From contig JAKOVQ010000017.1 of the NCBI GenBank assembly GCA_029781975.1, forward strand, positions 256,074 to 320,073: a stretch of 64,000 nt of DNA, given 5' to 3'. Below the pieces are notes generated by a model that saw nothing but the letters and a program-made list of their open reading frames with translations, ran no database searches and was not told the origin of the DNA. Of this stretch, positions 4,506 to 43,789 are shown one piece after another. The translations under genes were made by a program, and so were the position numbers. The stretch's first letter is position 1, and each line of letters starts with the position of its first letter. This stretch comes from Acidobacteriota bacterium (lineage in GTDB: Bacteria; Acidobacteriota; Thermoanaerobaculia; UBA5066).

Positions 4506-6191
4506 TCAGCGGCTCATCGGGACCCGGACGCCGTGCGCCTTCGCGAAGGCCGTCGCCTCCGGGTAGCCGGCGTCGACGTGGCGGACGATCCCCATCCCCG
4601 GGTCGGTCACCAGGACGCGGGCGAGGCGGCGCGCGGCGGCCTCCGTCCCGTCGGCCACGACGACCATCCCCGCGTGGATCGAGTAGCCGATCCCGACCCC
4701 GCCCCCGTGGTGGATCGAGACCCAGGTCGCCCCGGCGGCGGTGTTGACGAGCGCGTTCAGGAGCGGCCAGTCGGCGATGGCGTCGCTCCCGTCCCTCATC
4801 CCCTCGGTCTCGCGGTTCGGGGAGGCGACGGAGCCGCAGTCGAGGTGGTCGCGGCCGATGACGATCGGGGCCTTCACCTTCCCCGTCCTCACCAGCTCGT
4901 TGAACGCCAGCCCCGCCCGGTCCCGCTCCCCGTAGCCGAGCCAGCAGATCCTCGACGGAAGCCCCTGGAACGCCACCCGCTCGCCGGCCAGGCGGATCCA
5001 GCGCGCGAGGCCGGCGTTGCCGGGAAAGAGGTCGAGGATCGCCCGGTCGGTCGCGGCGATGTCCGCGGGGTCGCCGGAGAGGGCCGCCCAGCGGAACGGC
5101 CCCTTCCCCTCGCAGAAGAGCGGCCGGATGTAGCGCGGGACGAACCCCTCGATCCCGAACGCGTCCTCCACGCCCGCCCGGACGGCCTGCGCGCGGATGT
5201 TGTTGCCGTAGTCGAACGCCACCGCCCCCCGGCGCTGCAGCTCGAGCATCAGCCGGACGTGCTCCCCCATCGACGCCACCGCGCGGCGCCGGTACTCCTC
5301 CGGGTCGGCGACCCGGAGCCGGAGCGCCTCGGCGTAAGGGAGCCCGTGCGGGACGTAGCCGTTCAGGTCGTCGTGCGCCGACGTCTGGTCGGTGAGGAGG
5401 TCGGGGACGATCCCCCGCGCGACCAGCCGCGCGAGGAGGTCGACCGCGTTCGCCAGGACGCCGATCGACACGGCCTCCTTGCGGTCGCGGGCCGAGAGGG
5501 CGCGGTCGATGGCCGCGTCGAGGTCGTCGACCCTCTCGTCGCAGTACCGCGTGGCGAGGCGACGGTCGATCCGCGACGGGTCGACCTCGGCCATCAGCGC
5601 CGTCCCGCCGTTCAGCGTCACCGACAGGGGCTGGGCCCCGCCCATCCCGCCCAGGCCGGCGCTCACGGCGAGGCGCCCGGCGAGCGAGCCGTCCGGGCTC
5701 CCGAGGTCGCGGCGGGCGGCCTCGGCGAAGGTCTCGTAGGTCCCCTGCAGGATCCCCTGCGTCCCGATGTAGATCCACGAGCCGGCCGTCATCTGGCCGA
5801 ACATCGTCAGCCCCAGCCCCTCGAGCCGCCGGAACTCGTCGTACGTCGCCCACTTCGGGACGAGGTTCGCGTTGGCGATCAGGACGCGCGGAGCGTCGGC
5901 GTGGGTCCGGAAGACCGCCACCGGCTTGCCCGACTGGACGAGGAGGGTCTCGTCCTCTCCCAGCCTCTTCAGCTCGGCCAGGATCGCCTCGAGGCACGCC
6001 GGGTTGCGCGCCGCCTTGCCCGAGCCTCCGTAGACGACGAGGTCCTCGCGCCGCTCGGCCACCTCCGGGTCGAGGTTGTTGAGGAGCATCCGGTACGGGG
6101 CCTCGGTGAGCCACGACCGGCAGGAGAGGGCGGTTCCGCGCGGGAGGGCGGGAGGGGCGTACGGGGAGCGGACGTCGGGGAGCGTCGGCAT
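4506..6191 (-). CDS. hutU: Urocanate hydratase (urocanase)
   Basis: Second enzyme of histidine breakdown, which converts urocanate to imidazolonepropionate using tightly bound NAD. The 561-aa length is normal. Visible signatures are the N-terminal NNLDPEVAE and [10 protein letters not shown], the NAD-binding [28 protein letters not shown] (Cys416, matching the conserved urocanase cysteine) and [21 protein letters not shown]. It leads a three-gene unit with an NtrY-like kinase and a lipoprotein. Its partner hutH lies 7 kb away, so the hut genes are scattered. A TACCAT hexamer ends 6 nt before the ATG and there is no Shine-Dalgarno, which suggests a leaderless message. Confidence 0.96.
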
Positions 6192-6242: not shown

Positions 6243-6287
6243 TTACACAGCGCATTACTTGACAAGGTTTACGCAGCGCGTTATCTT
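6243..6287 (+). promoter_or_regulatory. phaR promoter with repeated operator-like element
   Basis: A consensus-type promoter: TTGACA at 6259-6264, a 17-nt spacer and TATCTT at 6282-6287. Expected transcription start is only about 3 nt before the phaR ATG. Two 16-bp copies of a near-identical element, TTACACAGCGCATTAC (6243-6258) and TTACGCAGCGCGTTAT (6269-6284), match at 13 of 16 positions. They are 26 bp apart; the first lies upstream of and touches the -35 and the second overlaps the spacer and -10. This is a good layout for autoregulation by the PhaR-like protein encoded just downstream. Confidence 0.6.
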
Positions 6288-6296
6288 TTCCCTGTC

Positions 6297-7010
6297 ATGA
6301 ACGCCACCGCCCGCCGCATCGTGAGATACCGGAACAGGAAGCTCTACGAGCCCGCGGAACGCCGCTTCGTCACCCTCGACGACATCGCGCGCTCCGTCGC
6401 CTCGGGGACCCGGATCGAGGTGAAGGCCGCGGACAGCGGCGAGGACATCACCGCCCGGATCCTCTCCCGCGCCCTCGCCTCGGACCGGACCCCGGTCCCG
6501 GCGTCGGCCGACGCCCTCACCCTCCTGCTCCGCGCCTCGAGCGACGCCGCAGGAACGGTTGCCGACGTGGTCGAGCGCGTCGGCGCCCCGCGGATGGCCG
6601 CGTCCGTCCGCCGCGCCACGGCCCCCGACAAGATCGCCGAGACGATCGCTCCCGTCACCAGGCGCCTCGAGACGGCGCGCCAGGACGTCGAGCGGATCGT
6701 CGGCGGCCTCGTCGGCCGGGGCCGGCTCACGTGGGAGGAGGGGACCCGGCTCAAGGAGGACGTCGGCGCCGTCTTCGGCGACAGCCTGGCGGACGTCCTC
6801 GGCCGCGTCCGGGACCTCCTCCGCCGCCTGAACGGGAACGCGACCAGCGACATGCGGAAGGAGATCCAGGACCTCGAGGGCCGGCTCGACCAGCTCGAGC
6901 AGCTCGCCGCCTCCTCGTTTCCCAAGTCCGTACGAGCCCCGAAGGGGATCCCAATGCCCACCGGCGGACGCCCGGCGCCCGCCCGCAAGAAGGAGTCAGC
7001 CAAGCCATGA
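6297..7010 (+). CDS. phaR: PhaR-like polyhydroxyalkanoate synthesis regulator
   Basis: A 237-aa protein whose first 40 residues match the PhaR DNA-binding/accumulation-regulator domain (RIVRYRNRKLYEPAERRFVTLDDIA). The family represses phasin and storage-granule genes until granules form. The rest is charged and helical with a likely coiled coil (DMRKEIQDLEGRLDQLEQL) and a basic proline-rich tail, unlike the short proteobacterial PhaR. The ATG at 6297 is chosen because the family motif starts right after it and the promoter lies directly upstream. The stop overlaps the start of the phasin-like gene (ATGA), so the two are co-translated. Confidence 0.82.
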   Translation: MNATARRIVRYRNRKLYEPAERRFVTLDDIARSVASGTRIEVKAADSGEDITARILSRALASDRTPVPASADALTLLLRASSDAAGTVADVVERVGAPRMAASVRRATAPDKIAETIAPVTRRLETARQDVERIVGGLVGRGRLTWEEGTRLKEDVGAVFGDSLADVLGRVRDLLRRLNGNATSDMRKEIQDLEGRLDQLEQLAASSFPKSVRAPKGIPMPTGGRPAPARKKESAKP

Positions 7011-7495
7011 GAACCGCCCGCAAGAGCCCCGCCGCCGGCACGATCAACCTCCCGTTCGCGGTCCCCGAGCCGATCGACCGCGCGTACAAGTCCGCGGTCC
7101 GCAAGGTCGGCGCCGTCAAGGACGAGACCCTCCAGGTGGCCAACAAGGTCGAGGAGACCGTCAAGTCGGCCGCGAGCACCGTCCGGAGGAAGGGCCAGAC
7201 CATCGCGAAGAACCCCCAGGGCTTCGTCAACGAGGTCGTCCGCGACGCCCGCGGCGGCGTCGACAAGGTCCGCACCGGCCTCTCCCGCGAAGCGGGCAAG
7301 CTCGCCGACGACCTCGCCCGGAGGATCGGCGGAGCCGTGACCCCCGTCATCGAGACGACGCTCCATCGCCTCAACGTCCCGACCCAGCGCGAGCTCAAGA
7401 CCCTCTCGAGCAAGGTCGACGGGCTGTCCCGGAAGATCGACGCCCTCCAGAAGCCGCGCGCCGCCCGCACCACCCGGACCCGGAAGGCCTCCTGA
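7007..7495 (+). CDS. Phasin-family granule-associated protein
   Basis: A 162-aa, strongly helical, lysine-rich protein. The family coats storage granules. The C-terminus LNVPTQRELKTLSSKVDGL resembles the leucine-rich coiled-coil end seen in PhaF/PhaI-like phasins, where a short helix follows an 'NVPTRxEL' phrase. The middle holds repeated amphipathic stretches (KVEETVKSAASTVRRK). The tail AARTTRTRKAS is basic and could touch DNA, as in PhaF. The ATG overlaps the phaR stop. A related but shorter protein is encoded at 11073-11369. Confidence 0.72.
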   Translation: MRTARKSPAAGTINLPFAVPEPIDRAYKSAVRKVGAVKDETLQVANKVEETVKSAASTVRRKGQTIAKNPQGFVNEVVRDARGGVDKVRTGLSREAGKLADDLARRIGGAVTPVIETTLHRLNVPTQRELKTLSSKVDGLSRKIDALQKPRAARTTRTRKAS

Positions 7496-7540
7496 GCCTC
7501 CCCGGCCCCCGTCCCGGGGTCTTCCGTTTCCGATAGACTC

Positions 7541-7565
7541 GAGGCGCCGGCGAACCCGGCGCCTC
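7541..7565 (+). terminator. Perfect 10-bp hairpin followed by a T-rich run
   Basis: GAGGCGCCGG (7541-7550), loop CGAAC and CCGGCGCCTC (7556-7565) pair perfectly and are followed by TTCTTTC. It lies 46 nt after the phasin stop and could end the phaR-phasin message. A TAGACT hexamer (7534-7539) directly precedes the stem, so the hairpin could instead begin the patatin leader. A weaker 6-bp hairpin (7500-7519) lies closer to the phasin stop. Confidence 0.6.
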
Positions 7566-7575
7566 TTCTTTCAGC

Positions 7576-8880
7576 GTGAGACCGACTCGCCTCCGCCTCG
7601 TCCCGTCGACCGGCCGCGGGGGGCCGTCCTTCCCCGCGCCCGTGCCGCACCGCCGCGCGCTCGTCTGCGCGGGAGGCGGGATCATGGGCGCCATCTACGA
7701 GATGGGCGTCCTGGCAGCCCTCGAGGAGCGCCTCGAGGGGGCCTCCGTCAACGACTTCGACCTCTTCGTCGGCGTCTCCGCCGGGTCGTACGTCGGGACC
7801 CTCCTGGCCAACGGCATCTCCCCCACCGTCCTCTACCGGTCGGTCACCCGCTCGGCGGGGAGCCGCTCCGACCTGGACGACATGCAGCTCTTCCGCCTCA
7901 ACCTCTCCGAGATCCTGGTCCGCCTCGCGCGGGCCCCGGTGACGGTGGCCGAGTCGGCCTGGGACTACTTCAAGAACGGCCGGGAGACGACGCTCACCGA
8001 CCTCGTCGCCTCCCTCTCCGCCGTTCTCCCGTCCGGCTTCTTCACGCTCGAGGGGCTCGAGGAGTGGCTCGAGGTCTGGCTCTCCCAGCCGGGGCGGACG
8101 AACGACTTCAGGCAGCTCCGCAACGAGCTCCGCTGCGTCGCCGTCGAGCTCGACACCGGCCACGTCGCCGCCTTCGGCGCGCCGGGGCTCGACCAGGTCC
8201 CGATCTCCCGGGCCGTGAAGGCGTCCTGCGCCCTGCCGGGGCTCTACCGCCCCGTGAGGATCGGCGACTCGGACTACATCGACGGCGGCGTCCGGAAGAC
8301 CGCCCACATCTCGCTGGCCATCCGGGACCGCTGCGGCCTCGTCGTCTGCGTCAACCCCATCGTCCCGCTGCGCGTGACGCCGAGCCGGACGCTCCCGCGC
8401 TTCGGCCGGATCCCGCGCGGCGCGCTGGCGAGCCGGGGGCTCCTCTCGGTCCTCGACCAGGTCTTCCGCCTCACCCTCCACACGCGGCTCCAGTACGGCC
8501 TCGCCCGGTACGCGCGCGAGAGGCCCGACGTCGACATCCTCGTCTTCGAGCCGAAGCCGGAGGACCTCCCCTTCTTCATGCGGAACATCATGCGGACCTC
8601 CGGCCGGGTGAGGATCGCCGAGTTCGCGTACCGGTCCACCATGCAGCGGCTCGACGAGGAGCACGGCCGGATCTCGCGCGTCCTCGCCCGCCACGGCCTC
8701 GGCCTGAGGCCCGCCGTCTCGTTTCCGCGCGTCGCGCGCCCCGCCCCTCCCCGCCGGCAGCCCGGGCTGAAGGGGGCGCACGACCGGCTGCTCGCCTCCC
8801 TCGACCGGCTCGAGAAGAGCCTCGACGGGCGGAAGGCGAGCGAGGCCGGGCCGCGCGCCCGGAGCGTCACTCCCCGGTGA
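7576..8880 (+). CDS. Patatin-like phospholipase
   Basis: A 434-aa serine hydrolase of the patatin family, which cleaves acyl chains from lipids with a Ser-Asp pair. The oxyanion loop GGGIMG is at residues 33-38. The nucleophile motif GVSAG is at 66-70 (Ser68). The catalytic Asp is in YIDGGVRK (Asp236). There is no export signal, so it is probably cytoplasmic. A C-terminal helical extension follows the catalytic domain. The start is a GTG. The gene sits between granule genes and faces an acyltransferase with which it shares 14 bp at the 3' ends. A role in lipid turnover at a granule or membrane is an inference from context. Confidence 0.85.
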   Translation: MRPTRLRLVPSTGRGGPSFPAPVPHRRALVCAGGGIMGAIYEMGVLAALEERLEGASVNDFDLFVGVSAGSYVGTLLANGISPTVLYRSVTRSAGSRSDLDDMQLFRLNLSEILVRLARAPVTVAESAWDYFKNGRETTLTDLVASLSAVLPSGFFTLEGLEEWLEVWLSQPGRTNDFRQLRNELRCVAVELDTGHVAAFGAPGLDQVPISRAVKASCALPGLYRPVRIGDSDYIDGGVRKTAHISLAIRDRCGLVVCVNPIVPLRVTPSRTLPRFGRIPRGALASRGLLSVLDQVFRLTLHTRLQYGLARYARERPDVDILVFEPKPEDLPFFMRNIMRTSGRVRIAEFAYRSTMQRLDEEHGRISRVLARHGLGLRPAVSFPRVARPAPPRRQPGLKGAHDRLLASLDRLEKSLDGRKASEAGPRARSVTPR

Positions 8881-9862
8881 AGACGTTCCCGCGCCGGGCG
8901 AGGCGCGAGTCGATCATCTGCTGGATGGTCTGCCGGACGTTGTCCGCGAGCTCGTTGACGATCATCGGCCGCTCGGCCACCTCGGGCCCGAGGCCGAGGT
9001 CGATCGGCTTGCCGATGTCGATCCACCACTTCGTCGGGAGCGGGACGACGCCGAGCGGACCGAGCGCCGGGAACGTCGGCGTGATCGGGAAGTAGGGGAA
9101 GCCGAACGGGCGCCCGATGACATCGGGGCGGGCCAGGATGGGATGGACCTCCTCCGCGCCGACCACCGACACCGGGACGACGGGCGACCCGGTCCTCAGG
9201 GCGAGGCGGATGAACCCGCCGCGGCCGAACCGGGCGAGGCGGTAGCGGTCCCGGAAGTACTTGCCGACCCCCTTGACCCCCTCGGGGAAGACGCCGACCA
9301 GCTCGTCGCGCTGGAGGAGCCGCTCGCCGTTCTCGGGGCACGCGCGCACCCCTCCCATCTGGCGGAGCCAGGGCTGCAGGAACGGGAGCGTCGTGAACAT
9401 GTCGAGGATGAGCATCCGGGCCTGCCGGCGCGCCGGGTGGTCCGTCTGGATCCCCTGCTTCACCATCGCGCCGTCCCACGGCAGCGTCCCCGAGTGGTTG
9501 ATGACGAGGAGCGCGCGGCCGGAGTTCGGGACGTTCTCGACGCCGGTCAGCGTCACGCGCCACCAGACCCGGTAGAGGAAGTCGAGGAGGGGCTCGAAGA
9601 CGCGCGCCGCCGCCTCGTCGGCCCCGAAGTCGTCGAGGTCGAGCGACCGGTTCCGGTGCCGGAACATGTTCCAGATGTCGACCCAGGCCCTCGGCGAGGA
9701 GAGCTCCGGGTTGGCGGCGAGGAAGCGCCCCGCCTCCCCCAGGAGGTTCCGGAGGAGCCGGTGCTCGTCCGTCGGCTCCGGCATGAGGCTCGGGGTGAAG
9801 GGGGCGACGGCGCCCGCGGGGGCCGCCGGCGCGGGGGAGGCTTCGGGGTCGGGCCGGGTCAT
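8867..9862 (-). CDS. Lysophospholipid acyltransferase-like protein (PlsC superfamily)
   Basis: A 331-aa member of the glycerolipid acyltransferase superfamily, which moves acyl groups onto lysophospholipids or related alcohols. It shows an acceptor box LLVINHSGTLPWDG (His123, Asp130) and a second box GVFPEGVKGVGK (192-195 FPEG). The spacing between His and Asp is six residues rather than the textbook four, so this is a divergent branch. A proline- and alanine-rich N-terminal stretch of about 30 residues precedes the domain. Its ATG overlaps the stop of the SDR gene upstream (ATGA), so the two products are probably made together. Confidence 0.82.
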   Translation of the reverse strand: MTRPDPEASPAPAAPAGAVAPFTPSLMPEPTDEHRLLRNLLGEAGRFLAANPELSSPRAWVDIWNMFRHRNRSLDLDDFGADEAAARVFEPLLDFLYRVWWRVTLTGVENVPNSGRALLVINHSGTLPWDGAMVKQGIQTDHPARRQARMLILDMFTTLPFLQPWLRQMGGVRACPENGERLLQRDELVGVFPEGVKGVGKYFRDRYRLARFGRGGFIRLALRTGSPVVPVSVVGAEEVHPILARPDVIGRPFGFPYFPITPTFPALGPLGVVPLPTKWWIDIGKPIDLGLGPEVAERPMIVNELADNVRQTIQQMIDSRLARRGNVFTGE

Positions 9863-11061
9863 GACGCCACCTTCTCGAGCTTCGGGGGGGCGGCGGGAAT
9901 TCCCCCTCCGGGTCCGGCGGGAGTGTCGGGGGCGGGGCTCCGGTGCCTCCTCACGCGGCTCTCGAACCGGTACGCGGCCGTCCGGGCGATCTCCTCGAGG
10001 ACGCCGAAGTCGAGCGCGCGCCCCCGGCCCCGCTTGGCCCGCGCGACCTGGAGCACCGTCTCCAGCGTCGTGAAGCGCGGCGAGAAGCCGAGGACCCGCC
10101 GCGCCTTCTCGTTCTCCGCCACGCACGGGTAGCGGACGTAGTGAGCGTGGATCCCGGGGGCCGAGGCGAAGCCGGCCAGCCAGAGGAGCTCGGCGAGCCC
10201 GTAGGCCAGGCCGTGCGGGACCGGCAGCTCCGGCGTCCCGAAGAGGAGGTGGACGGAGGAGATCGGAAGGACGCCGTCCGGCGCGATGTTGAAGACTCCG
10301 TGCGCGTCCGGCTTGTCGAGGGTCCTGAGGAGGGCCTCCACCGCGTCGTCCGGGTGGAGGAACTGGACGAGCGGGTCGTAGCCCAGCATCGTCATCGCGA
10401 AGGCCCCCTCCAGGTACCGGAGCCTGTAGTCGCGCCGCTCGGGGGCGAGCATCGGGGCCAGGCGGAGGACGGCGGTCTTCGCGTCGGGGTGGCGGCGCGC
10501 GAAGTCGCGCGCGTGCCGCTCGGCCTCCACGAAGTCCCGGACGAAGCGGTCGCCCGGGTCGGGGCGCATCGGGTGGTCCTCGGTGAGGAAGGCCGGGTTG
10601 TCCCCCCGCGCGCCGTAGACGAGCGTCGTGGAGGTGACGATGAGGCGCTTGATCCGCGCCTCGCCGGCCGCTCCCAGGACGTGCAGGGCGCCGATGGAGT
10701 TCAGCTCGTGGGCGTACGTGGCGTCGCGGGTCGGGCTCCGGAGGGCCGCCATGTGGACGACCACGTCGGGCTTCTCCTCGCGGAGCAGCTTCCACACCGT
10801 CCCGTCCGCGTGCGGCAGGTTCAGGTCGAGGAACCGGTGGCGGACCTCGGGCGGCGTGTTGGCGGCGGGGGCGAGGTCGAGGACCAGGATGTCCCAGTCG
10901 CCCCGGGCGGCCAGGGCGCGGACGAAGCGGGCCCCGAGGTAGCCGCTCCCCCCCGTCACCGCCACCCTGGGACGTCCGGTCGAGGCCGAGAACCCGACGA
11001 CGTTCCCGTCCCTCCGCGCGCGCCGCCCGCGGGAGGCCGGCTTCTTCGCGGGTTCGTTCAT
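9859..11061 (-). CDS. NAD-dependent epimerase/dehydratase-like SDR protein
   Basis: A 400-aa extended SDR. The nucleotide-binding motif VTGGSGYLGARFV is clear, as are VVHMAALRSP and STTLVYG. Where most family members carry the catalytic YxxxK, this protein reads GDRFVRDFVEAERHA, with no tyrosine or lysine in the expected places. It may bind NAD(P) without classic catalysis, or use other residues. A basic N-terminal extension of about 30 residues precedes the fold. It is the middle gene of the phasin-like/SDR/acyltransferase unit: 11 nt after the phasin-like stop, and overlapping the acyltransferase start. Confidence 0.8.
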   Translation of the reverse strand: MNEPAKKPASRGRRARRDGNVVGFSASTGRPRVAVTGGSGYLGARFVRALAARGDWDILVLDLAPAANTPPEVRHRFLDLNLPHADGTVWKLLREEKPDVVVHMAALRSPTRDATYAHELNSIGALHVLGAAGEARIKRLIVTSTTLVYGARGDNPAFLTEDHPMRPDPGDRFVRDFVEAERHARDFARRHPDAKTAVLRLAPMLAPERRDYRLRYLEGAFAMTMLGYDPLVQFLHPDDAVEALLRTLDKPDAHGVFNIAPDGVLPISSVHLLFGTPELPVPHGLAYGLAELLWLAGFASAPGIHAHYVRYPCVAENEKARRVLGFSPRFTTLETVLQVARAKRGRGRALDFGVLEEIARTAAYRFESRVRRHRSPAPDTPAGPGGGIPAAPPKLEKVAS

Positions 11062-11072
11062 CTCCTCGCTCC

Positions 11073-11369
11073 TCAGCCGCGCCTGGCGGCCGTCCTCGGC
11101 TTCCGGGCCGCCGGCCGGGCGGGCGCCTTCATCGCCTCGAGCTCGGCCTCGAGCGCGGCGAGGCGGCTCTCGAGCTTGGCGATGTCCTTCCGCGTCGCGA
11201 CGTTCATCCGCTTCACGGCAGCCGCCACCTGCTTGTCGACCGCCTCCTTCGCGGCGACGCCCTTCTTCAGGACCTCGACGAACGCCTCGTTCGCCAGGAG
11301 ACGGTTCGTGATCTCGTTGAAGAAGTCCTCCCCACGGGACATCAGCTGCCGGATCAGCGGCTCGGCCAT
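11073..11369 (-). CDS. Small phasin-like helical protein
   Basis: A 98-aa predicted helical protein. The phrase VKRMNVATRKDIAKLESRLAALEAEL mirrors the C-terminal coiled coil of the phasin at 7007-7495. The end is basic (PAARKPRTAARRG). This ATG is chosen over upstream ones because an AAAGGAA ribosome site precedes it and the upstream extension is arginine-rich and unlike protein. It heads the SDR-acyltransferase unit. The product could sit on granules or membranes with the neighbouring lipid enzymes; the function is inferred from similarity and context. Confidence 0.7.
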   Translation of the reverse strand: MAEPLIRQLMSRGEDFFNEITNRLLANEAFVEVLKKGVAAKEAVDKQVAAAVKRMNVATRKDIAKLESRLAALEAELEAMKAPARPAARKPRTAARRG

Positions 11370-11476
11370 CGCTTCGTTCCTTTCTCGCCGGAGACGGGGC
11401 CGGCGACCTGAACGTCCGATTATGGCAGCCATCGGCGCGCCCGACGGCGCCCGCCCGGGGTGAGAATGCGGGCCGG

Positions 11477-13321
11477 ATGCCAGGCCCGTCCGCCTTCGCA
11501 CCTCTCGACCGGCTGCAGCTCGTCGTGGTCTCCGGCAAGGGGGGGGTCGGGAAGACGTCGGTGTCGGCCGCCCTCGCGGCGCGAGCCGCCGCCTCCGGAC
11601 GGCGCGTCCTCCTCGTCTCCACCGACGGCCGGGGCGACGCGGCCGCGCTCTTCGGGCAGCCGGACGGCGGGTACGAGGAGACTCCCCTCGAGCCCGGGCT
11701 CCGGGGACTGACCGCCGACTTCGACGCCCTCCTCGCCGACTTCGTCAACAGCGTCGTCCCGATGAGCGCCCTCGCCTCGGCGATCCTGGGGTCGTCGACG
11801 TTTCGCTACTTCACGCGGGCCACGCCCGGCCTGCCGGACCTCCTCCTGCTCGGCAAGGTCCGCGAGGTCCTCCGCCGCGGTCGCCCCACCGACCTGGTGG
11901 TCATCGACGCCCCGGCCATGGGCCACGCCCTCTCCCTCGTCGGCATCCCGAGGACCATCCTCCGGGTCGTCCCCGTCGGCCCTCTCCGCCAGCTCGCCCT
12001 CGACCTCGACAAGCTCCTCTCCGACCCGTCCCGCTCCGCCCTCGTCGTCGTGGCCGAGCCGGCCGAGCTCGCGGCGCGGGAGGCGGACGAGCTGGTCGAC
12101 GGCGCCCGCTCGGGCGGCGGCCTCGCCACCGCCCTCCTCGTCGTCAACCGGATCGGCCGGAGCGGCCGGGCCGAGACCCTTCCGAAGACCGCGCTCCCGA
12201 CGGTCAAGGTGCCCGAGATCCCCGACCCGCCGGCCGTGGGGAACGGGGCCTTCGCCCTGGACCGGGGCTTCTTCGCTCTCTTCCGCCGGGCGCTCGTCGA
12301 CGGCGAGCTCCCGCCGTCCCGACCGGCTTCGGTCCGGGGCGCGCCCCTCCCGCCCGGCGACCTTCGGTTCCGGGAGCTCGTCCAGGGGACGTCGCTCCTC
12401 GTCCTCACCGGGCCGGGAGGGGTCGGGAAGACCACGCTCTCCGCCGCCGCGGGGATCGCGGCCGCGCGCGCCGGGCGCCGGACGCTCGTCATCACCGTCG
12501 ACCCGGCCCGGCGGCTCGCCCAGGCGCTGGGGCTTTCGGGCGCTCTCGACCGGCCGGTCCCCGTCGACCTCCCCGGGGGCGCCACGCTCCACGTGATGCA
12601 GGTCGACCCGAAGGCGAGCTTCGAGCGCCTCCTGGCGCGGGTCGCACCTCCGGCGACGGTCCGTCGCATCCATGCCAACCGCCTCTACGCCGGCCTCGTC
12701 GACTCGCTCCCCGGCGTCGTCGAGTACATGGGGGTCGAGGCGCTCGCCGAGCACGCGAGCGACCCGGACACCGACCTCCTCGTCCTCGACACCGCGCCGG
12801 CGGCCCGCGGGCTCGACTTCCTCAAGGCCCCCGACCGGATGGTCGAGCTGCTGGAGAACGACGCCCTCAAGTGGTTCCTCCGGGGCGACTCCCTCCTGCA
12901 GCGCGCCATCTCGGGCTCGGCGCGCGGGGCGGCCTTCGTCCTGAAGTCGGCCGACCGGTTCCTGGGGTTCAGCTTCCTCCGGGACATGACCGACTTCTTC
13001 CACGCCTTCGACGGGCTCTACGACGGGTTCCGGAGCCGGAACCGGGAGATCGGCGCCCTTCTGCGGCGCGCCGACTACCTCGTCGTCTCCTCTCCGGACC
13101 GCTCGGCCCTGAGGACCGCCGCGGAGCTCGCGACCCTCCTTCCCGGCGTCTCCGGGAGGCTCGGCCTCGTCCTCAACCGGGTCCCTTCGGGAACGACGTC
13201 CGTCGCGCTCCCTCCCGTCCTGGCGGCGCTCCCCCGCCGGAACCTCGTCGAGGACGCCACTCCCGCCGACGCCCTCCCGCAGCTCCTGGCCGAGCGGCTC
13301 GCCGGCCCGGCCCGCTCCTGA
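11477..13321 (+). CDS. Two-domain ArsA/Get3-family ATPase
   Basis: A 614-aa protein with two fused ArsA/Get3-type P-loop ATPase halves. The first has the deviant Walker A SGKGGVGKTS (residues 19-28), the second TGPGGVGKTT (near 311-320). The second half has VDPARR, LDTAPAARGL and HVMQVDPKASFERL, typical of the family; the first half is more divergent. The family includes arsenite-pump motors and tail-anchored-protein targeting factors. No arsB, arsR or arsC gene is nearby, while phasin-like and lipid genes flank it, so a targeting or chaperone role fits better. It is divergent from the phasin-like gene and converges with hutH, 9 nt away. Confidence 0.88.
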   Translation: MPGPSAFAPLDRLQLVVVSGKGGVGKTSVSAALAARAAASGRRVLLVSTDGRGDAAALFGQPDGGYEETPLEPGLRGLTADFDALLADFVNSVVPMSALASAILGSSTFRYFTRATPGLPDLLLLGKVREVLRRGRPTDLVVIDAPAMGHALSLVGIPRTILRVVPVGPLRQLALDLDKLLSDPSRSALVVVAEPAELAAREADELVDGARSGGGLATALLVVNRIGRSGRAETLPKTALPTVKVPEIPDPPAVGNGAFALDRGFFALFRRALVDGELPPSRPASVRGAPLPPGDLRFRELVQGTSLLVLTGPGGVGKTTLSAAAGIAAARAGRRTLVITVDPARRLAQALGLSGALDRPVPVDLPGGATLHVMQVDPKASFERLLARVAPPATVRRIHANRLYAGLVDSLPGVVEYMGVEALAEHASDPDTDLLVLDTAPAARGLDFLKAPDRMVELLENDALKWFLRGDSLLQRAISGSARGAAFVLKSADRFLGFSFLRDMTDFFHAFDGLYDGFRSRNREIGALLRRADYLVVSSPDRSALRTAAELATLLPGVSGRLGLVLNRVPSGTTSVALPPVLAALPRRNLVEDATPADALPQLLAERLAGPARS

Positions 13322-13330: not shown

Positions 13331-14860
13331 TCAGGCCAGGTCGGCCACCAGGTCGGCGATCCCCGAGACCAGGAGCTCGCGCGCCCGGGCCACGTCCGGC
13401 GCCGCGTAGCGGTCCGCGTCCCACGGCGGGACGACCGCGCGGAGCCGCCGGTGGAGCTCCTCGAGCCGCTCGCTCGAGCGGAGCGGCCGGCGCAGGTCGA
13501 GGGCCTGCGCCGCCGCCAGGAGCTCGATGGCCAGGACGTTCTCGAGGTTCGTCACGTTCCGCTCGAGCTTGCGCGCCGCGATCGGACCCATCGAGACGTG
13601 GTCCTCCTTGCCGGCCGACGTCGGGATCGAGTCGACCGACGCGGGGAACGAGTTCGCCTTCGACTCCGACACCAGGGCCGCCGCCGTGACGTGCAGCATC
13701 ATGAAGCCTGAGTTGAGCCCCCCCTCCCTCACGAGGAAGGCGGGAAGCTCCTCGGAGAGCGACGGGTTCACCAGCCGCTCCGTCCGCCTCTCGGAGATCG
13801 ACGCCAGGTCGGCGCACGCCGCCGTCAGCATGTCGAAGACCAGCGCCACCGGCGCCCCGTGGAAGTTGCCGCCCGAGATCAGCTCCCCCTCGCCGTCGCC
13901 CGTCACGAAGACCATCGGGTTGTCGGTGGCGGAGTTCATCTCGATCGTCACCACCTTGAGCGCGTGGGCCGCCGCGTCGCGGACCGTCCCGTGGACCTGC
14001 GGCGCACAGCGGAGCGCGTAGGCGTCCTGCACCAGGCCGCAGTGGCGGTGGCTCTCGCGGAGGGGCGAGCCCTGGAGGAGCATCCTCAGGTTCGCGGCGG
14101 ACGCGGCCTGCCCCGGGTGCGGGCGGGCCGCGTGGATCCGCGGGTCGAAGGCGACGTCGGTCCCCTTCAGGACGTCCGTCGTCATCCCGGCCACCAGGTC
14201 GACCGCCTTCGTCAGGTGGAGGAGCCGCGCCAGGGCCAGCGCGCCGACGGCCGTCATCAGCTGCGTCCCGTTGATCAGGGCGAGCCCTTCCTTCGCCTCG
14301 AACGTCGCGGGGGCGAGCTTCTCGGCCGCCAGCGCCTCGGCCGCGGTCGTCCGCTTCCCGTGGTACTCCACCTCCCCTTCGCCCATCAGCGCGCGCGCCA
14401 GGTGGGCGAGCGGCGCCAGGTCGCCGGAGGCCCCCACCGACCCCTGGGCCGGCACGGACGGGTGGATCCCGCGGCGGAGGAGCTTCAGGAGCAGCTCCAC
14501 CGTCTCCCGGCGGACGCCCGAGAACCCCTTCGCCAGGCAGTTCGCCCGGAGGACCATCAGCGCGCGGACCGTGGGCGTCGGCAGCGGCTCCCCGACGCCC
14601 GCCGCGTGGCTCTCCACGAGGTTGCGCTGCAGGAGCTGCAGCTTGTCCCTCGGGATGACGACGTCGGAGAACTTGCCGAACCCCGTCGTCACCCCGTAGA
14701 CGACGAGGTTCTCGGAGACGGCGCGGTCGATCAGGACCCGCGCGGCGTCGATCCGCCGGCGCGCCTCCGGCCCGAGGACGGCGTTGCGCCCCCGCTCGGC
14801 GACCGCGACCAGCTCCTTCAGCGTGAGGGTCTCTCCCGTGAGGACGATCGGCTCTGACAT
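13331..14860 (-). CDS. hutH: Histidine ammonia-lyase
   Basis: First step of histidine breakdown: removal of ammonia from histidine to give urocanate. The 509-aa length is standard. The Ala-Ser-Gly triad that cyclises into the MIO electrophile is in GSVGASGDLAPLAH (Ala144-Ser145-Gly146), and the YGVTTGFG motif lies at 55-62. Other family phrases are LVESHAAGVGEP and SATDNPMVF. It is divergent from purA with only 40 nt between the starts. Its substrate chain continues with hutU at 4506-6191. No hutI or hutG is in the window. Confidence 0.96.
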   Translation of the reverse strand: MSEPIVLTGETLTLKELVAVAERGRNAVLGPEARRRIDAARVLIDRAVSENLVVYGVTTGFGKFSDVVIPRDKLQLLQRNLVESHAAGVGEPLPTPTVRALMVLRANCLAKGFSGVRRETVELLLKLLRRGIHPSVPAQGSVGASGDLAPLAHLARALMGEGEVEYHGKRTTAAEALAAEKLAPATFEAKEGLALINGTQLMTAVGALALARLLHLTKAVDLVAGMTTDVLKGTDVAFDPRIHAARPHPGQAASAANLRMLLQGSPLRESHRHCGLVQDAYALRCAPQVHGTVRDAAAHALKVVTIEMNSATDNPMVFVTGDGEGELISGGNFHGAPVALVFDMLTAACADLASISERRTERLVNPSLSEELPAFLVREGGLNSGFMMLHVTAAALVSESKANSFPASVDSIPTSAGKEDHVSMGPIAARKLERNVTNLENVLAIELLAAAQALDLRRPLRSSERLEELHRRLRAVVPPWDADRYAAPDVARARELLVSGIADLVADLA

Positions 14861-14888
14861 GGAGCCCGGATTGTCCCATCTCCTCGGC

Positions 14889-14894
14889 TACAAT
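14889..14894 (+). promoter_or_regulatory. Candidate -10 box of purA
   Basis: TACAAT is followed by six bases and then the GTG start of purA, so the message may begin at the start codon. There is no Shine-Dalgarno. A recognisable -35 is lacking at 17 nt. Confidence 0.45.
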
Positions 14895-14900
14895 CGATGG

Positions 14901-16238
14901 GTGAATACGACCCGTGGCAACGCCGTCGTCGTGATCGGTGGCCAGTGGGGAGACGAGGGGAAGGGGAAGGTCGTCGACCTCATCGGCCCCTCCTTCGACC
15001 TCGTCGCCCGCTACCAGGGCGGCCACAACGCCGGCCACACCGTCCGCTTCGGCGACAAGCACTTCGCCCTCCGCCTCGTCCCGTCCGGCATCTGCCGTCC
15101 CGGGATCCTCAACGTCATCGGGAACGGCCTCGTCGTCGACCCGCGCGCCCTCCTGGCCGAGATCGCCGACCTCCGCAAGGAAGGCGTGGCGGTGGGAGAC
15201 AACCTGAAGCTCTCCGACCGCGCCCACGTCATCCTCCCGACGCACGCCCTCCTCGACGGCGCGCGGGAGAAGGCGCTCGCGGGCGCCAACATCGGCACCA
15301 CCTCGCGCGGCATCGGGCCCGCGTACGAGACGAAGGCGAACCGGACGGGGATCCGCGTCGTCGACCTCGTGGACCCCGACCGGTTCGTCGCCCTCGCCCG
15401 CCCGCTCCTGACGCACCACCTGGCCGTCCTGACGCACTTCTACGGCCTGACGGGCCCCTCGGTCGACGACACCATCGCCGAGTACCTCGCGTGCGCGCGC
15501 CAGCTCGCCCCCTTCGTGGCGGACACGCGTGCCCTCCTCCAGCAGCGCCTCGCCGCCGGCGCGCGCCTCCTCTGCGAGGGGGCGCAGGGCGTCATGCTCG
15601 ACGTCGACCACGGCACCTACCCCTTCGTCACGTCGTCCTCCTGCGGCCCGGGCGGCGCCTGCACCGGCCTCGGCATCCCGCCGTCGGCCCTCCGCTGCGT
15701 CGTCGCCGTCATGAAGGCGTACACGACCCGCGTCGGCTCCGGCCCCTTCCCCACCGAGCTCCACGACGAGACCGGCGAGAGGATCCGGACGCGCGGCAAC
15801 GAGTTCGGCACCGTCACCGGCCGCTCCCGCCGCGTCGGCTGGTTCGACGCCGTCGTCGCGCGGACCACGGTGGCCCTCTCCGGCCTCGACGCCGTCGTCC
15901 TCACCAAGCTCGACGTCCTCGACGAAGAGGACGAGATCCGGATCGCCGTCGCCTACGAGGTGGACGGGCAGACCGTCACCGAGATCCCCGCCCGCTCCGA
16001 CCGCTACGAGAGGGCGAAGCCCGTCTACCGCTCCTTCCCCGGCTGGAAGAGCATCACCGCGGGCATCGACTCCTTCGACGCCCTCCCCCCCCGCGCCCGC
16101 GGCTACCTCGCCGCGCTGGAGGAGATCATCGGCGCCAGGGTCGCCCTCCTCTCCACGGGGCCCCGCCGCGAGGAGACCATCGTCCTCCCGGGAACCCCCC
16201 TGGACGAGTGGCTCAAGCTGGCGGCGCCGGCGGCCTGA
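14901..16238 (+). CDS. purA: Adenylosuccinate synthetase
   Basis: Committed step from IMP to AMP: GTP-dependent joining of IMP and aspartate. The 445-aa length is normal. Signatures are GGQWGDEGKGKVVD near the start, GGHNAGHTV, the IMP-binding stretch GTTSRGIGPAYETK and NEFGTVTGRSRR near the C-terminal third. The GTG at 14901 is chosen because family proteins begin about 10 residues before GGQWGDEG. An upstream ATG would overlap the divergent hutH start and add an unlike peptide. Tail phrases (PRREETIVL) are also typical. Confidence 0.97.
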   Translation: MNTTRGNAVVVIGGQWGDEGKGKVVDLIGPSFDLVARYQGGHNAGHTVRFGDKHFALRLVPSGICRPGILNVIGNGLVVDPRALLAEIADLRKEGVAVGDNLKLSDRAHVILPTHALLDGAREKALAGANIGTTSRGIGPAYETKANRTGIRVVDLVDPDRFVALARPLLTHHLAVLTHFYGLTGPSVDDTIAEYLACARQLAPFVADTRALLQQRLAAGARLLCEGAQGVMLDVDHGTYPFVTSSSCGPGGACTGLGIPPSALRCVVAVMKAYTTRVGSGPFPTELHDETGERIRTRGNEFGTVTGRSRRVGWFDAVVARTTVALSGLDAVVLTKLDVLDEEDEIRIAVAYEVDGQTVTEIPARSDRYERAKPVYRSFPGWKSITAGIDSFDALPPRARGYLAALEEIIGARVALLSTGPRREETIVLPGTPLDEWLKLAAPAA

Positions 16239-16290
16239 CGGGTCGGGAGAGGGGATGGCGGCGCGGTTTCCTCCCTCCCCTGCCGTCCGC

Positions 16291-16296
16291 TAGACT
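16291..16296 (+). promoter_or_regulatory. Candidate -10 box of tRNA-Lys
   Basis: TAGACT lies 11 nt before the first base of the tRNA. It is the same hexamer that precedes several protein genes in this window, which supports TAGACT as a working -10 sequence in this genome. Confidence 0.5.
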
Positions 16297-16307
16297 GGCG
16301 ACCTGGC

Positions 16308-16383
16308 GGGCCGTTAGCTCAGCGGTTAGAGCATCTGCCTTTTAAGCAGGGGGTCCTGGGTTCGAGACCCAGACGGCCCACCA
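16308..16383 (+). tRNA. tRNA-Lys (anticodon TTT)
   Basis: The acceptor stem GGGCCGT (16308-16314) pairs with ACGGCCC (16373-16379). The D arm contains TTAGCTCAGCGGTTAGAGC. The anticodon loop CTTTTAA carries TTT. The T arm has GGGTTCGAGACCC. The CCA end is encoded (16381-16383). No variable-loop expansion. The gene stands alone, and the PAS-protein stop codon lies on the other strand only 2 nt beyond it. Confidence 0.97.
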
Positions 16384-16384
16384 G

Positions 16385-17578
16385 TTACCCCCCTCGCACC
16401 TTCGAGCTCGCTCCGTGCCGGTCCAACGGGGCGACGCCCGGGTCCTCCGTCACCTCCTGGAAGACGACCACGATTCCGCGGACCTTCCCGTCCGGGCCGC
16501 GGTCGGGCGTGTAGAGGCCCCGTCCCCGGCGCCGGCCTTCCGCCCCGGGCGGGAGCACCGACTCGAAGGTGACCGGCTCTCCGGCGAGCGCCCGCTCGAG
16601 GAGCGGTTTCAGCTTTACCCATCCCGGCTCGCCGACCACCTCCCGGACCGTCCGGCCCGGGAAGGAGTCGACGGGCTTCCCGAACCACCCGGCGTAGCTC
16701 GAGTTCACCCGCAGGTAGCGGCATTCCGCGTCGAGGTGCGCGACGGGCACCGGGAGGGACTCCAGGTGCGAGCGCCTCTTCAGGTCCCGAAAGAAGGCGA
16801 AGAACCGGCCTCCTCCGACCGGCGACCAGGACGTCGTCACCTCGGCGGACCAGACGAGCCCGCCCTTCGTCCGGTGCTCGGTCTCGAAGAGGTCGCTCCC
16901 GGTCCGCTTGAGCCGCTCCATGTGGCGTGCCGTGTCCTCCGGAGTCTCGCGGGCCTCGAGGTCGGAGATCCGCATCGAGAGGAGCTCGTCCATCGGGTAG
17001 CCCGAGAGGCGCACGTAGGTTTCGTTGGCCTCGAGGACGCGGCCCTCGGAGTCGAGGACGAGGACGCCGTCCGCGGAGGTCTCGACGACCGCCCGGTAGC
17101 GCTCCTCCCTCTCCCGAAGCCCCTGCTCGGCGCGCTTGCGCTCGGAGACGTCCCGGAAGACCGCGGCGAAGCACCCTTCCTCGGGGCAGTGGGCCGAGAT
17201 CGCGAGCCACCGCCCGAGACGCTCGACATAGGTCTCGTACTTCCCCGGCTCGCCCGTCCGAGCCACCCGTCCGTAGAACTCGAAGAGGTCGGGACTGGTC
17301 TCCCGGATGCCCGGGACGAGCTCGGAGACGCGCTTTCCGATCGGGTCCTTCAGGCCGGTCAGCCGCTCCCACGCGGGGTTCACGAGGAGGTAGACGTAGT
17401 CGACGGCGGTCTCGCCTTCGAAGACCACCCGGCAGTAGAGGAACCCCTCCTCCATGTTCGCCAGGAGCGACGGACCTTCCCGGAAGGCCCGGGCCAGCTG
17501 CTCGGAGGCGGTCATCGAGCGGGGTCGGGCGCCCGACCCGGCCGGGCCTGGGCCCGTCGCCTTCCGGACAGGGTCCAT
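16385..17578 (-). CDS. Multi-PAS sensory protein without output domain
   Basis: A 397-aa soluble protein with about three PAS modules: near residues 30-150 (YVYLLVNPAWERLTGL), 160-275 (ADGVLVLDSEGRVLEANETYVRLSGYP) and 280-385 (AHLDAECRYLRVNSSYAGWFGKP). The ends of the first and last modules read FRDVSERKRAE and FQEVTED, typical PAC ends. No kinase, GGDEF, EAL or DNA-binding domain follows, so it must signal through a partner or has lost its output. The ATG at 17578 has a GGGGAAAGG ribosome site; an internal ATG at 17515 is an alternative. Confidence 0.75.
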   Translation of the reverse strand: MDPVRKATGPGPAGSGARPRSMTASEQLARAFREGPSLLANMEEGFLYCRVVFEGETAVDYVYLLVNPAWERLTGLKDPIGKRVSELVPGIRETSPDLFEFYGRVARTGEPGKYETYVERLGRWLAISAHCPEEGCFAAVFRDVSERKRAEQGLREREERYRAVVETSADGVLVLDSEGRVLEANETYVRLSGYPMDELLSMRISDLEARETPEDTARHMERLKRTGSDLFETEHRTKGGLVWSAEVTTSWSPVGGGRFFAFFRDLKRRSHLESLPVPVAHLDAECRYLRVNSSYAGWFGKPVDSFPGRTVREVVGEPGWVKLKPLLERALAGEPVTFESVLPPGAEGRRRGRGLYTPDRGPDGKVRGIVVVFQEVTEDPGVAPLDRHGASSKVRGG

Positions 17579-30504: not shown

Positions 30505-33500
30505 ATGACCCGCGACCCCGAGCTCCGCGCCCACCAGGAGTGGATCGGGTACCTGCAGCCCGTCGGGCTCGTCGTCTCGCCGCCGGCCCTCGTCGCCGCC
30601 GGCGCCCTCCCCGACCGCAACGTCGCCGAGCCTCAGGAGTCGTTGCGCGACCTCGTTTCGGGCGACCCGCCCACCCTCTCCGACTTCCCCGCCTTCGCGC
30701 GCGCACTCCTCGACTGGGAGCCCGACAACCTCGCCGGCGCCCCGGGCGGCCCGCCGCTCTCCGAGAGCCTTACCGTCCCACTCACCGACTACGGCGACCA
30801 CCTCCGCCCCACCTTCGCCGTCCCCGACGTCGACAAGCCCGACGACCCCGCCGCCTCCGTCCTCCTCGTCCAGGTCGTCCCGCCCGGGACCGACCTCGAC
30901 GACGCCGGCCCCGCCCGCGAGGGGCACCACGGCTGGCACGCCAGCCCCGAGGCGCGGTTTGAAAGGCTCCTGCGCGAGACCGGCGTCGGCGCCGGCCTCC
31001 TCGTCAACGGCGCCTCCCTCCGCCTCGTCGCCGCCCCCAAGGGCGAGTCGGCCGGGCACGTCACCTTCCCCGTCGCCGCCATGTGCGAGGTGGCGGGCCG
31101 CCCCATCCTCGCCGCCCTCCGGATGCTCCTGGGCGCCGACCGCCTCTTCACCCTCCCGTCGAAGCAGCGCCTCCCGGCCCTCCTCCGCGAGAGCCGCAAG
31201 TATCAGAACGAGGTCTCCACCCGCCTGGCCGAGCAGGTGCTGGACGCCCTCCACGAGCTCGTCCGCGGCTTCCAGGCGGCGGGGATCTCCGACGCCACCG
31301 GCGAGGAGGTCTACGGCGGCCTCCTCACCACCCTCCTCCGCCTCGTCTTCGTCCTCTACGCCGAGGACCGCGGCCTCGTCTCCTCCGACCCCGTCTACGT
31401 CGAGCACTACTCCGTGGGCGGCCTCTTCACCCGCCTGCGCGACGACGCCGCCCTCTACCCCGACACCATGGACCAGCGCTTCGGCGCCTGGTCGCGCCTC
31501 CTCACCCTCTTCCGCCTCCTCCACGACGGCGCCGCGCACGGGGGCCTGCGCATCCCGCCGCGCCACGGCCGCCTCTTCTCCCCCGACGCCTACCCCTTCC
31601 TCGAGGGGCGCACCCGCGCCGAGAAGGCCGCCCCGGGCGACCGCCTTTCCCGCCCCCCGCGCCTCTCCGACGGCGTCGTCTGGCGCGTCCTCGAGAAGCT
31701 CCTCGTCCTCGACGGCGAGCGGCTCTCCTACCGCGCCCTCGACGTGGAGCAGATCGGCTCGGTCTACGAGGCGATCATGGGCTTCGCCCTCCGCGTCGCC
31801 GAGGCGCCGATGGTCGCCGTCCCCACCCGGAAGAAGGGGATCGCGGTGGACGTCCACCTCGACGCCTCCGCCCTCCTCGCCCGCTCCCCCGCCGAGCGCG
31901 CGCGCGTTCTGAAGGACGAGGCCGACTGCGACCTGACCGGGGCCTCCCTCGACGCCCTCAAGGCCGCGAAGACGCCGGACGACGTCGCCGCGGCCCTCGG
32001 CAAGAAGCTGAGCAGGCGGACCCCGCGGCCGCTCCCCCCTGGGTCGCTGTACCTGCAGCCCACGGAGGAGCGCCGCCGCAGCGGCTCGCACTACACCCCC
32101 CGCTCCCTCACCGAGCCCATCGTCCGCACCACGCTCGAGCCCGTCCTCGCCGCCCTCGGCCCCAGCCCCACCCCCGCGCAGATCCTCGACCTGAAGGTCT
32201 GCGACCCGGCCATGGGCTCCGGCGCCTTCCTCGTGGAGGCGTGCCGCTTCCTGGGCGACGCCCTCGTCCGCGCCTGGGACGCCCACGGCGAGACCCCCGA
32301 GATCCCCCCGGACGAGGACCCCGTCCTCTTCGCCCGCCGCCAGGTGGCCCAGCTGTGCCTCTACGGCGTGGACAAGAACCCCTTCGCCGTAGACCTCGCC
32401 AAGCTCTCCCTTTGGCTGGCAACCCTCGCGAAGGACCACCCCTTCACCTTCCTCGACGACGCCCTCCGCCACGGCGACTCCCTCGTCGGGCTCTCTCCCG
32501 CGCAGATCGAGCGCTTCCACTGGGAGGCCCAGGGCCAGCAGCCGCTGTTGGCCGGCCGCATCCGCGCCGCCCTGGATGAGGCGAAGGCCCTGCGGGCCGA
32601 CCTCGAGACCCTCAACGACGCCGACACCGAGGGCCAGGAGGCCCTCCTCGCCCGCGCCGAGGCCGCCCTGGCCGACGTCCGCCTCGCCGGCGACCTCGTC
32701 CTCGCCGCCTTCTTCGGCGGCAAGAAGAAGAAGGAGCGCGAGGCCCTGCGGGCCGAGTACGAGGCGCTCTACGAGGATGTGCTCTCGCAGCGGCGGCCGA
32801 GAGAGGAGGCCGAAAAGATCGTCCGCGGGTTGCGGACGGGAGAGAAGCCCGTCTTCCCGTTCCACTGGGAGCTGGCGTTCCCGGAGGTCTTCGCGCGGGA
32901 GAACCCGGGGTTCGATGCATTCGTGGGGAATCCGCCGTTCGCCGGGAAGAACACCCTTCGAGCCTCGACGCGCGACGCCTACCCAGAGTGGCTCCTCGAG
33001 ACCCACGAGCAAAGCCACGGCAACGCCGACCTCGTCGCTTTCTTCTACCGCCGCACCTTCGACAAGCTCCGCTCCGGCGGTGCCTTCGGCCTCATCGCCA
33101 CGAACACCATCGCCCAGGGCGACACCCGCGGCACCGGCTTGCGCCACATCTGCACTCACGGTGGGACGATCTTCAACGCGCGCAGGAGAGTGAGATGGCC
33201 GGGGATGGCCGCGGTCGTCGTGAGCGTCGTCCACGTGACGAAGGGGGAGGGGAAAGCGCCGTTCCGGCTGGACGACCACGAGGTCGACACGATCACGGCG
33301 TTCCTCTTCCACGCGGGCGGGCACGAGGACCCGAAGCCGCTCAAGGAGAACGAAGGGAAGTGCTTCGTCGGGAGCTACGTCCTCGGCATGGGCTTCACGT
33401 TCGACGACACGAACCCCGAGGCGACGCCCATCGCCGAAATGTATCGGCTCATCGAGAAGAACCCGCGGAACGCGGAGCGGATCTTCCCGTATCTCGGCGG

Positions 33501-34401: not shown

Positions 34402-34573
34402 GCGGCCGCACGCGATGTGCCAGCGTCGAGCATCAGTCACGCTTCTTAACTCCCATCCTCGGTGACGTGAACCGCGTCAACCTTGCCAGTCCCCTGCCGC
34501 TCGTCGAGGACGCGAGCGACTTCTGCCACCTTCAGATGGCCCGCACCGGCGGCGACGGAGGAGTGCTTCTCAG
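34402..34573 (+). other. Gap between drmMI and SIR2 with a possible 36-codon frame
   Basis: 172 nt of lower GC than the flanks. A short frame runs from GTG 34467 to a TGA (34575-34577) that overlaps the SIR2 start as ATGA. It would encode 36 residues (MNRVNLASPLPLVEDASDFC...). It may be a leader peptide that couples translation into the SIR2 gene, a gene remnant, or chance. No promoter was clear. Confidence 0.3.
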
Positions 34574-38100: not shown

Positions 38101-38265
38101 GTCGCGGGAGTATCAGGCGTCCGTTGAATCGGCGGTCGCTTCAGGCGAGTTGGGGGCAGGCGTGAAAGCGTGAATTGATACCGCGTGGGCTCGTCTTTCG
38201 GATTGTCGCCTCGGGCTGATCCCTGGGCGCCCCGGGACGCTCAGAGCGTGGAGGAAGCGAACGTC

Positions 38266-41663: not shown

Positions 41664-41800
41664 TGAGGGTCGATCGCATAACCCGTTGCCGCTGGCTCGA
41701 TGAGAAACGCTCCGGCTTGCCGCTGCAGGTATCCGAAGGCGCGCGCTCCGCGGCCGTCAGGCCTTTCCACCTTCCGACCCTCGGATGGAATCGTCTTCTG
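41664..41800. other. Gap between mcrC and the nucleotidyltransferase gene
   Basis: 137 nt. No convincing gene, hairpin or promoter was seen. An ATG near 41662 could extend the next protein, but the added residues look random. Confidence 0.4.
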
Positions 41801-42094
41801 ATGGTTCAATCCCGTGACGAGATCATGGCGACCCTTCGGGCTATGAAGCCCGATCTCGTTCGACGGTTCGGCGTCCACGACATCGCCCTATTCGGTTCGT
41901 TTGCGCGGGGCGAGGAGACCGACCGGAGCGACATCGACATCCTCGTGGACGTCGACCCTGAGATCGGACTCGATTTCGTCACGCTCGCGGACCATCTCGA
42001 GGCCGCCCTCGGCCGGCCGGTCGACCTGGTCTCCACTCGCGCGCTCCGTGCACGGCACATGGACGCCATTCAGCCTGAAGCTCTTCATGTCTAA
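41801..42094 (+). CDS. MNT-family minimal nucleotidyltransferase (MntA-like)
   Basis: A 97-aa enzyme with the intact pattern GSx10DxD: GSFARGEETDRSDIDIL with Gly32-Ser33, Asp44 and Asp46. A third acidic residue lies in RPVDLVS. Family members act as antitoxins by adding AMP groups to a HEPN toxin. No HEPN gene is adjacent: the next gene is a secreted protein. So it is an orphan or has lost its partner. Start chosen at the ATG directly before the conserved core; a longer in-frame form exists from about 41663. Confidence 0.82.
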   Translation: MVQSRDEIMATLRAMKPDLVRRFGVHDIALFGSFARGEETDRSDIDILVDVDPEIGLDFVTLADHLEAALGRPVDLVSTRALRARHMDAIQPEALHV

Positions 42095-42213
42095 GCACCT
42101 GACTTCGGCCATTGGTTCGAAATGAGACACGAGGTAGGCTGGCACTCAGGATGCAAGACGGTCCGCGCGAGCACAGTCCGCAGGACGATCGGCAGGATCC
42201 GAAGAGCCCGCCG

Positions 42214-43131: not shown

Positions 43132-43277
43132 CCCACGCGCGGAGTGGCGAGCCGTTGGCGGGTGCCGCGGCGATAACTCTCCTCCTGGCGCCCCTCCTCT
43201 TCGCGGTCGAGGCGTCCGCCCGGGTCATCCCGAGCGCCAGGGAGGATGTCGGCGGAACTGGGGTCTGTGATCCGTGA
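43128..43277 (+). pseudogene. Short secreted frame, probably the 5' remnant of a truncated gene
   Basis: A 49-aa frame starting with a GTG that overlaps the previous stop. It consists of a good signal peptide (GAAAITLLLAPLLFAVEASARV) followed by only about 20 residues before the TGA. The overlap suggests it was once the second gene of a pair with the secreted protein before it, cut off by the rearrangement that brought in the neighbouring DNA. It could also be a real small secreted peptide. Confidence 0.4.
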
Positions 43278-43782: not shown

Positions 43783-43789
43783 TCCTGCC

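Follow-up and report, generated by a model that had tools for sequence, protein, structure and literature searches.

A cluster of seven genes (positions 6297-13321) was analysed in a 64,000-nucleotide stretch of an Acidobacteriota genome (GenBank GCA_029781975.1, contig JAKOVQ010000017.1, positions 256,074 to 320,073; hereafter the window), encoding a PhaR-like regulator, two phasins, a patatin-like lipase, an acyltransferase, an extended short-chain dehydrogenase/reductase (SDR) and a fused Get3/ArsA-fold ATPase. The cluster probably represents the surface-and-control unit of a neutral-lipid body filled with triacylglycerol or wax ester, assembled from polyhydroxyalkanoate (PHA) granule parts without a PHA synthase (PhaC). 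We assign this reading, which is well supported by comparison, a probability of about 0.6. It is favoured because the genome lacks PhaC and encodes wax ester/triacylglycerol synthases (WS/DGAT), because all 40 WS/DGAT-positive genomes among 297 surveyed also possess PhaR, and because WS/DGAT genes lie by the cluster in two other families (f33 and f7).

Gene content and co-occurrence across Acidobacteriota

Family scans of the window proteins confirmed all seven genes, in agreement with the first-pass annotation, which had grouped them and remarked on the missing PHA synthase. That absence extends to the whole host genome (G000; 5.37 Mb, 96% complete): the models PF07167, TIGR01836 and TIGR01838 gave no match in it and no phaC operon was present elsewhere, while the same models readily matched in other Acidobacteriota. 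Two WS/DGAT are encoded in G000 outside the cluster (2.3e-60 and 2.7e-35). In another genome (G033, C68:70580-72063) a WS/DGAT gene and the sole phasin gene are about 0.4 kb apart, with phaR located elsewhere.

The survey sample was restricted to Acidobacteriota, and most of its 297 genomes were metagenome-assembled. PhaR (PF07879) was detected in 66 of them and an ATPase resembling BagB of Mycobacterium tuberculosis (E < 1e-25) in 24, every one of which also had PhaR, with hypergeometric p values of 5e-18 by genome and 4e-14 by genus that serve as guides only because the genomes are related. Moreover, four further genomes with a BagAB-like ATPase pair from beyond this sample all possessed PhaR. 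With regard to whether relatives keep the cluster with or without phaC, as asked in the first-pass annotation, PhaC was found in none of the 24 BagB-like genomes as compared to 11 of 28 tested genomes that have PhaR and lack BagB (Fisher 4e-4).

The cluster was collinear in all genera of the window's GTDB family (14 genomes, to the extent that their contigs cover it), which proves little alone because the flanking genes hutU, hutH and purA are equally collinear. This collinearity, together with the finding that phasins can act as chaperones in cells free of polyhydroxybutyrate (PMC5658603), would fit the view that shared descent alone keeps the genes together, with phasin-like proteins that serve as general chaperones or DNA-binding proteins in cells without a storage body. 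We consider this explanation unlikely, as the order ATPase-PhaR-phasin-patatin recurs in five other families (f7, f33, f36, f61 and f16) where hut and pur genes are not beside the cluster, WS/DGAT is confined to PhaR genomes and the operator described below is kept across 14 families. In those five families the ATPase pair and phaR are contiguous, within about 0.8-1.6 kb, and phasin and patatin genes usually come next; with ATPase-PhaR linkage recurring in six families, the homologues are not scattered and unlinked. Furthermore, WS/DGAT adjoins patatin in three f33 genomes and follows about 5 kb on in f7. In f47, which belongs to another class, phaR, phasin, acyltransferase (63% identical), SDR and phasin2 genes are grouped, joined by the patatin gene in one of two genomes.

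Regulator, surface proteins and predicted operator

The cluster PhaR contains the PHB_acc_N DNA-binding domain (PF07879, 54.2 bits against a cut-off of 25) and stays under the equivalog cut-off of TIGR01848 (39 versus 109 bits). Phasin1 passes PF05597 (40.2 bits, cut-off 28.8), and phasin2, which corresponds to the C-terminal half of a phasin and is kept in the window's family and in f47, falls slightly below it with 27.4 bits. Alignment of the tails revealed a C-terminal coil and a basic Ala/Pro tail common to phasin1, phasin2 and PhaR, the coil motif V-[PA]-T-R-x-[DE]-I-x-x-L-x-x-[RK]-[LV] being present in both phasins and as a variant in PhaR. Genome-wide, these two are the only phasin genes of G000.

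The phaR promoter consists of TTGACA (6259-6264), a 17-bp spacer and TATCTT (6282-6287). The palindrome TTACGCAGCGCGTTA (6269-6283) sits within the promoter spacer, and a degenerate copy, TTACACAGCGCATTA (6243-6257), directly precedes the -35 element. The pattern T-N-A-CGC-N3-GCG-T-N-A occupies the same promoter place in those family members with a readable upstream region, and its variant T-N-[AC]-CGC-N3-GCG-[TG]-N-A (TNMCGC-N3-GCGKNA) occurs upstream of phaR in 14 PhaC-less families, often as paired copies 29-33 bp apart. A total of 46 sites were found in 661 kb of loci as compared to five in shuffled sequence, and 37 of the 46 were located at the start of a cluster gene. In f7 (G022) the operator is placed between the divergent ATPase and phaR genes, and in one PhaC locus (f34) it precedes a phasin gene. 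Known PhaR sites have the sequence CTGCN3GCAG and lie near the -35 and -10 elements (PMC12542648); the cluster palindrome has the same GC-N3-GC core and spacing and a like placement over the promoter, and we infer that it is a candidate operator of the cluster PhaR. The other three exact sites in G000 are all inside coding sequence, and no other shared intergenic target in the family was convincing as part of a wider PhaR regulon; the site TTACGCGCTGCGTCA recurs in genus g3 next to different genes.

In the PhaR tree, the regulators of operator-bearing loci fell on one side of a branch (support 91/81), opposite the PhaRs of PhaC loci and a second, canonical PhaR of G000 (C24:481777-481956; L076:10379-10999, minus strand). 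The tree serves as a guide only, since a number of its rows are long or incomplete; the f34 row retained just 29 aa, and f41 and one f33 row were left out. As PhaR, phasins and a PhaR-like operator belong to the standard equipment of PHA systems, they might, together with the second PhaR, indicate a true PHA granule formed by a divergent, unrecognised synthase, with phasins and PhaR in their usual role. This is quite improbable in our view: the three synthase models match nothing in G000 or the 24 BagB-like genomes, yet find PhaC in other Acidobacteriota, and the PhaC loci (f9, f41, f79 and f34) combine the other PhaR type with neither patatin nor ATPase genes. No PhaC, phasin or operator was found beside the second PhaR, which belongs to the PHA-type clade.

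The cluster thus shares with the PHA granule systems of Cupriavidus, Rhodobacter and Sinorhizobium the PhaR DNA-binding domain, the phasin domain, the coil with basic tail and, as predicted here, an operator with a GC-N3-GC core overlapping the promoter. It differs from them in a genome without PHA synthase, a separate PhaR clade, and patatin and a Get3-like ATPase instead, with WS/DGAT as candidate synthase. Probably, the phasin/PhaR granule type appears here in a new form, refitted to neutral lipid. Lipid inclusions of Rhodococcus ruber have yielded a phasin (PMC5658603), and in Rhodococcus the regulator MLDSR is encoded in one operon with the major droplet surface protein MLDS, similar to phaR and phasin1 (PMC5504291). 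MLDSR was shown to bind palindromes at the operator/promoter and to be sequestered on real droplets, a repressor logic that may apply here as well; it is described with an XRE helix-turn-helix and not a PhaR domain, and no Get3-like ATPase is reported for that unit (PMC5504291). In metagenomes, WS/DGAT genes have likewise been found with lipid genes, and with a phasin on one betaproteobacterial scaffold; that report terms neutral-lipid accumulation in Acidobacteriota unexplored and, in the passages found, mentions no patatin or ATPase context (PMC10351704).

We propose that an oil core would be made by the WS/DGAT enzymes encoded elsewhere in the genome, perhaps together with the acyltransferase, and be coated by phasin1 and phasin2. 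PhaR would repress its own operon, i.e., phaR-phasin1 and probably patatin, via the promoter palindrome, until accumulating oil draws it off onto the droplet. The patatin, which has GxSxG and DGG motifs and whose homologue adjoins phaR in most PhaC-less loci, would free acyl chains from the droplet; patatin-like proteins of this kind resemble the eukaryotic droplet lipases of the ATGL/Tgl type. The acyltransferase is closest in fold to PlsC (5kym) and shows weak similarity to DAGAT (PF03982, 1.8e-4, sub-threshold in the window) that was seen in 10 of 10 members; its designation as a clear diacylglycerol acyltransferase was dropped, the similarity being sub-threshold and the fold that of PlsC. 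In the alignment the SDR has GxxGxxG and lacks YxxxK in all family members and f47, and may be a non-catalytic or unusual enzyme.

Several observations weigh against the neutral-lipid body. At the thresholds used, no WS/DGAT was found in 11 of the 24 genomes with a BagB-like ATPase, several of which belong to the window's own family; in these 11 the triacylglycerol or wax ester core and its synthase are tentative, the PlsC-fold acyltransferase being only a candidate for the latter. In the window, a match to the operator with one mismatch or fewer was detected neither at the phasin2 promoter nor at that of the ATPase. Moreover, the ATPase is linked to phaR in six of 14 families and located elsewhere in the rest, counts over related genomes are not independent, and the droplet is a prediction from gene content. 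The recurrent link of a Get3-like ATPase with neutral-lipid storage also suggests that phasin and PhaR genes, usually read as a sign of PHA, can mark lipid bodies instead; if so, the annotation of such genes in PhaC-less genomes would change.

The fused Get3-like ATPase

Each half of the ATPase corresponds to one chain of the Get3-like A/B structure from M. tuberculosis (BagAB, Rv3679/Rv3680; PDB 6bs3): the C half matched 6bs3_B at 1.9e-38 and the N half 6bs3_A at 5.8e-19, with ArsA and Get3 structures scoring far behind, so that A-type and B-type partners are both present, one per half. The AlphaFold model (pLDDT 79) displayed an ArsA-like pseudo-dimer fold, and its best single-chain half match was again 6bs3_B. 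The protein reaches the Get3/ArsA subfamily model TIGR00345 (141.9 bits, cut-off 135) and stays below the NCBIfam equivalog cut-offs for BagB (217.8 versus 521) and BagA (112.7 versus 400). The Walker A motif of the N half is GKGGVGKT, whereas the C half reads GPGGVGKT in 9 of 9 fused members and G[ASG]GGVGK in relatives that are not fused, and has thereby lost the lysine that characterises the deviant Walker A motif. No CxxC motif was found in the window ATPase or its relatives in the alignment, and the 614-aa window protein contains no cysteine anywhere. Since its halves match 6bs3 A/B and both CxxC and cysteine are missing, fused BagA-BagB-like ATPase is the most fitting name for it; it is not an arsenite-pump subunit, and a Get3 identity is not demonstrated. 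BagAB differs in that the proteins are here fused in one chain and tied to phaR, phasin and patatin in six families.

A chance presence of an arsenite-pump ArsA ATPase, to which the fused two-half architecture and the ArsA-like pseudo-dimer fold could point, is extremely improbable: without cysteine there is no ArsA metal site, the curated model TIGR04291 was not reached (81.8 bits against 650), and there were no ars genes among the cluster neighbours read. With eukaryotic Get3/TRC40 the protein shares the fold, the P-loop family and the TIGR00345 cut-off; it differs in having no CxxC and in carrying GPGGVGK in place of GKGGVGK in the C half. The first-pass annotation had proposed a lipid body to whose surface a Get3-like factor could deliver proteins with hydrophobic tails. 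The neutral-lipid part of this proposal gained support from the absence of PhaC, the presence of WS/DGAT and the co-occurrence with PhaR, while the targeting part is unproven: besides the motif losses, a tail-anchored partner was sought among all cluster proteins and none has a transmembrane tail, and because of this tail-anchored delivery lacks direct support and is analogy only.

In the proposed lipid body, the ATPase might chaperone lipid enzymes or the hydrophobic or amphipathic proteins of the droplet in a nucleotide-gated manner. A more specific version, in which it places phasins, patatin or acyltransferases on neutral-lipid bodies while the refitted PhaR senses the droplet surface, would be the bacterial equivalent of protein targeting to organelles, with droplet load as the controlling signal; we regard it as doubtful. 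Somewhat better placed, albeit tentative, is the possibility that the unit serves a lipid body and the ATPase is merely co-inherited, providing BagAB-like protection from metabolic stress such as glycerol-derived toxicity. According to work cited in PMC10597346, its nearest solved relatives, the ATPases Rv3679 and Rv3680, interact with each other and shield the cell from the toxic effects of glycerol and nitric oxide. Moreover, fat breakdown yields glycerol and acyl chains, and some ATPase pairs adjoin an acyl-CoA synthetase gene: the pair follows it in f6, f11 and f36, and directly follows a long-chain acyl-CoA synthetase gene in loci L060, L062, L063, L064 and L066 (G039, G060, G033, G048 and G054), from other families of the class. 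By contrast, the tight linkage to phaR, together with the operator region that both genes share in G022, points to a function connected with the body itself. The ATPase may therefore be either a chaperone of amphipathic droplet proteins or a BagAB-like guard against glycerol-linked stress. There is no consensus on what Get3 homologues do in bacteria, and no literature linking phasin/PhaR to ArsA/Get3 in Acidobacteriota was found; the recurrent, operator-marked link between the ATPase and neutral-lipid storage supplies a defined client system on which a bacterial Get3-like ATPase can be tested.

Locus layout and further observations

The cluster forms three short transcription units placed between hutU and hutH (Table 1). 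phaR and the phasin1 gene, which overlap by ATGA, and the patatin gene constitute the plus-strand unit; the minus-strand unit begins with phasin2, followed after an 11-bp gap by the SDR gene and, with an ATGA overlap, the acyltransferase gene. The ATPase gene is a single open reading frame divergent from phasin2. The window lies on contig C15, and close relatives of G000 carry the labels Thermoanaerobaculia or Holophagales.

Table 1. Positions of the cluster features and flanking genes in the window.
Feature	Position	Strand	Remarks
hutU	4506-6191	-	left flank
phaR promoter and operators	6243-6287	+	conserved in the window's family and 13 further families
PhaR-like regulator, 237 aa	6297-7010	+	PF07879, E 1.6e-14
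Phasin1, 162 aa	7007-7495	+	PF05597, 4.2e-10; translationally coupled to phaR
Patatin-like lipase, 434 aa	7576-8880	+	PF01734, 1.6e-26; start codon uncertain
PlsC-type acyltransferase, 331 aa	8867-9862	-	PF01553, ~1.3e-14 to 1.4e-14
Extended SDR	9859-11061	-	PF01370, 6.4e-25
Phasin2, 98 aa	11073-11369	-	PF05597, 3.8e-6, under curated cut-off
Fused BagA-BagB-like Get3/ArsA-fold ATPase, 614 aa	11477-13321	+	two PF02374 stretches, 1.7e-44
hutH	13331-14860	-	right flank

By a WS/DGAT-linked cluster of another genome (L097:6329-7933 and 13536-16770), genes for a GMC oxidoreductase, an ABC1/UbiB-type kinase and HMG-CoA reductase were observed, and ABC1 and HMG-CoA reductase homologues occur near the cluster in other families too. 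Elsewhere in the window, a lower-GC stretch (62-69%) harbours a defence island (30505-49792) with the DISARM genes drmMI (30505-34401), drmA (44319-47984) and drmB (47981-49792), a SIR2-HerA pair (34574-38100) and a further candidate (38185-40392).

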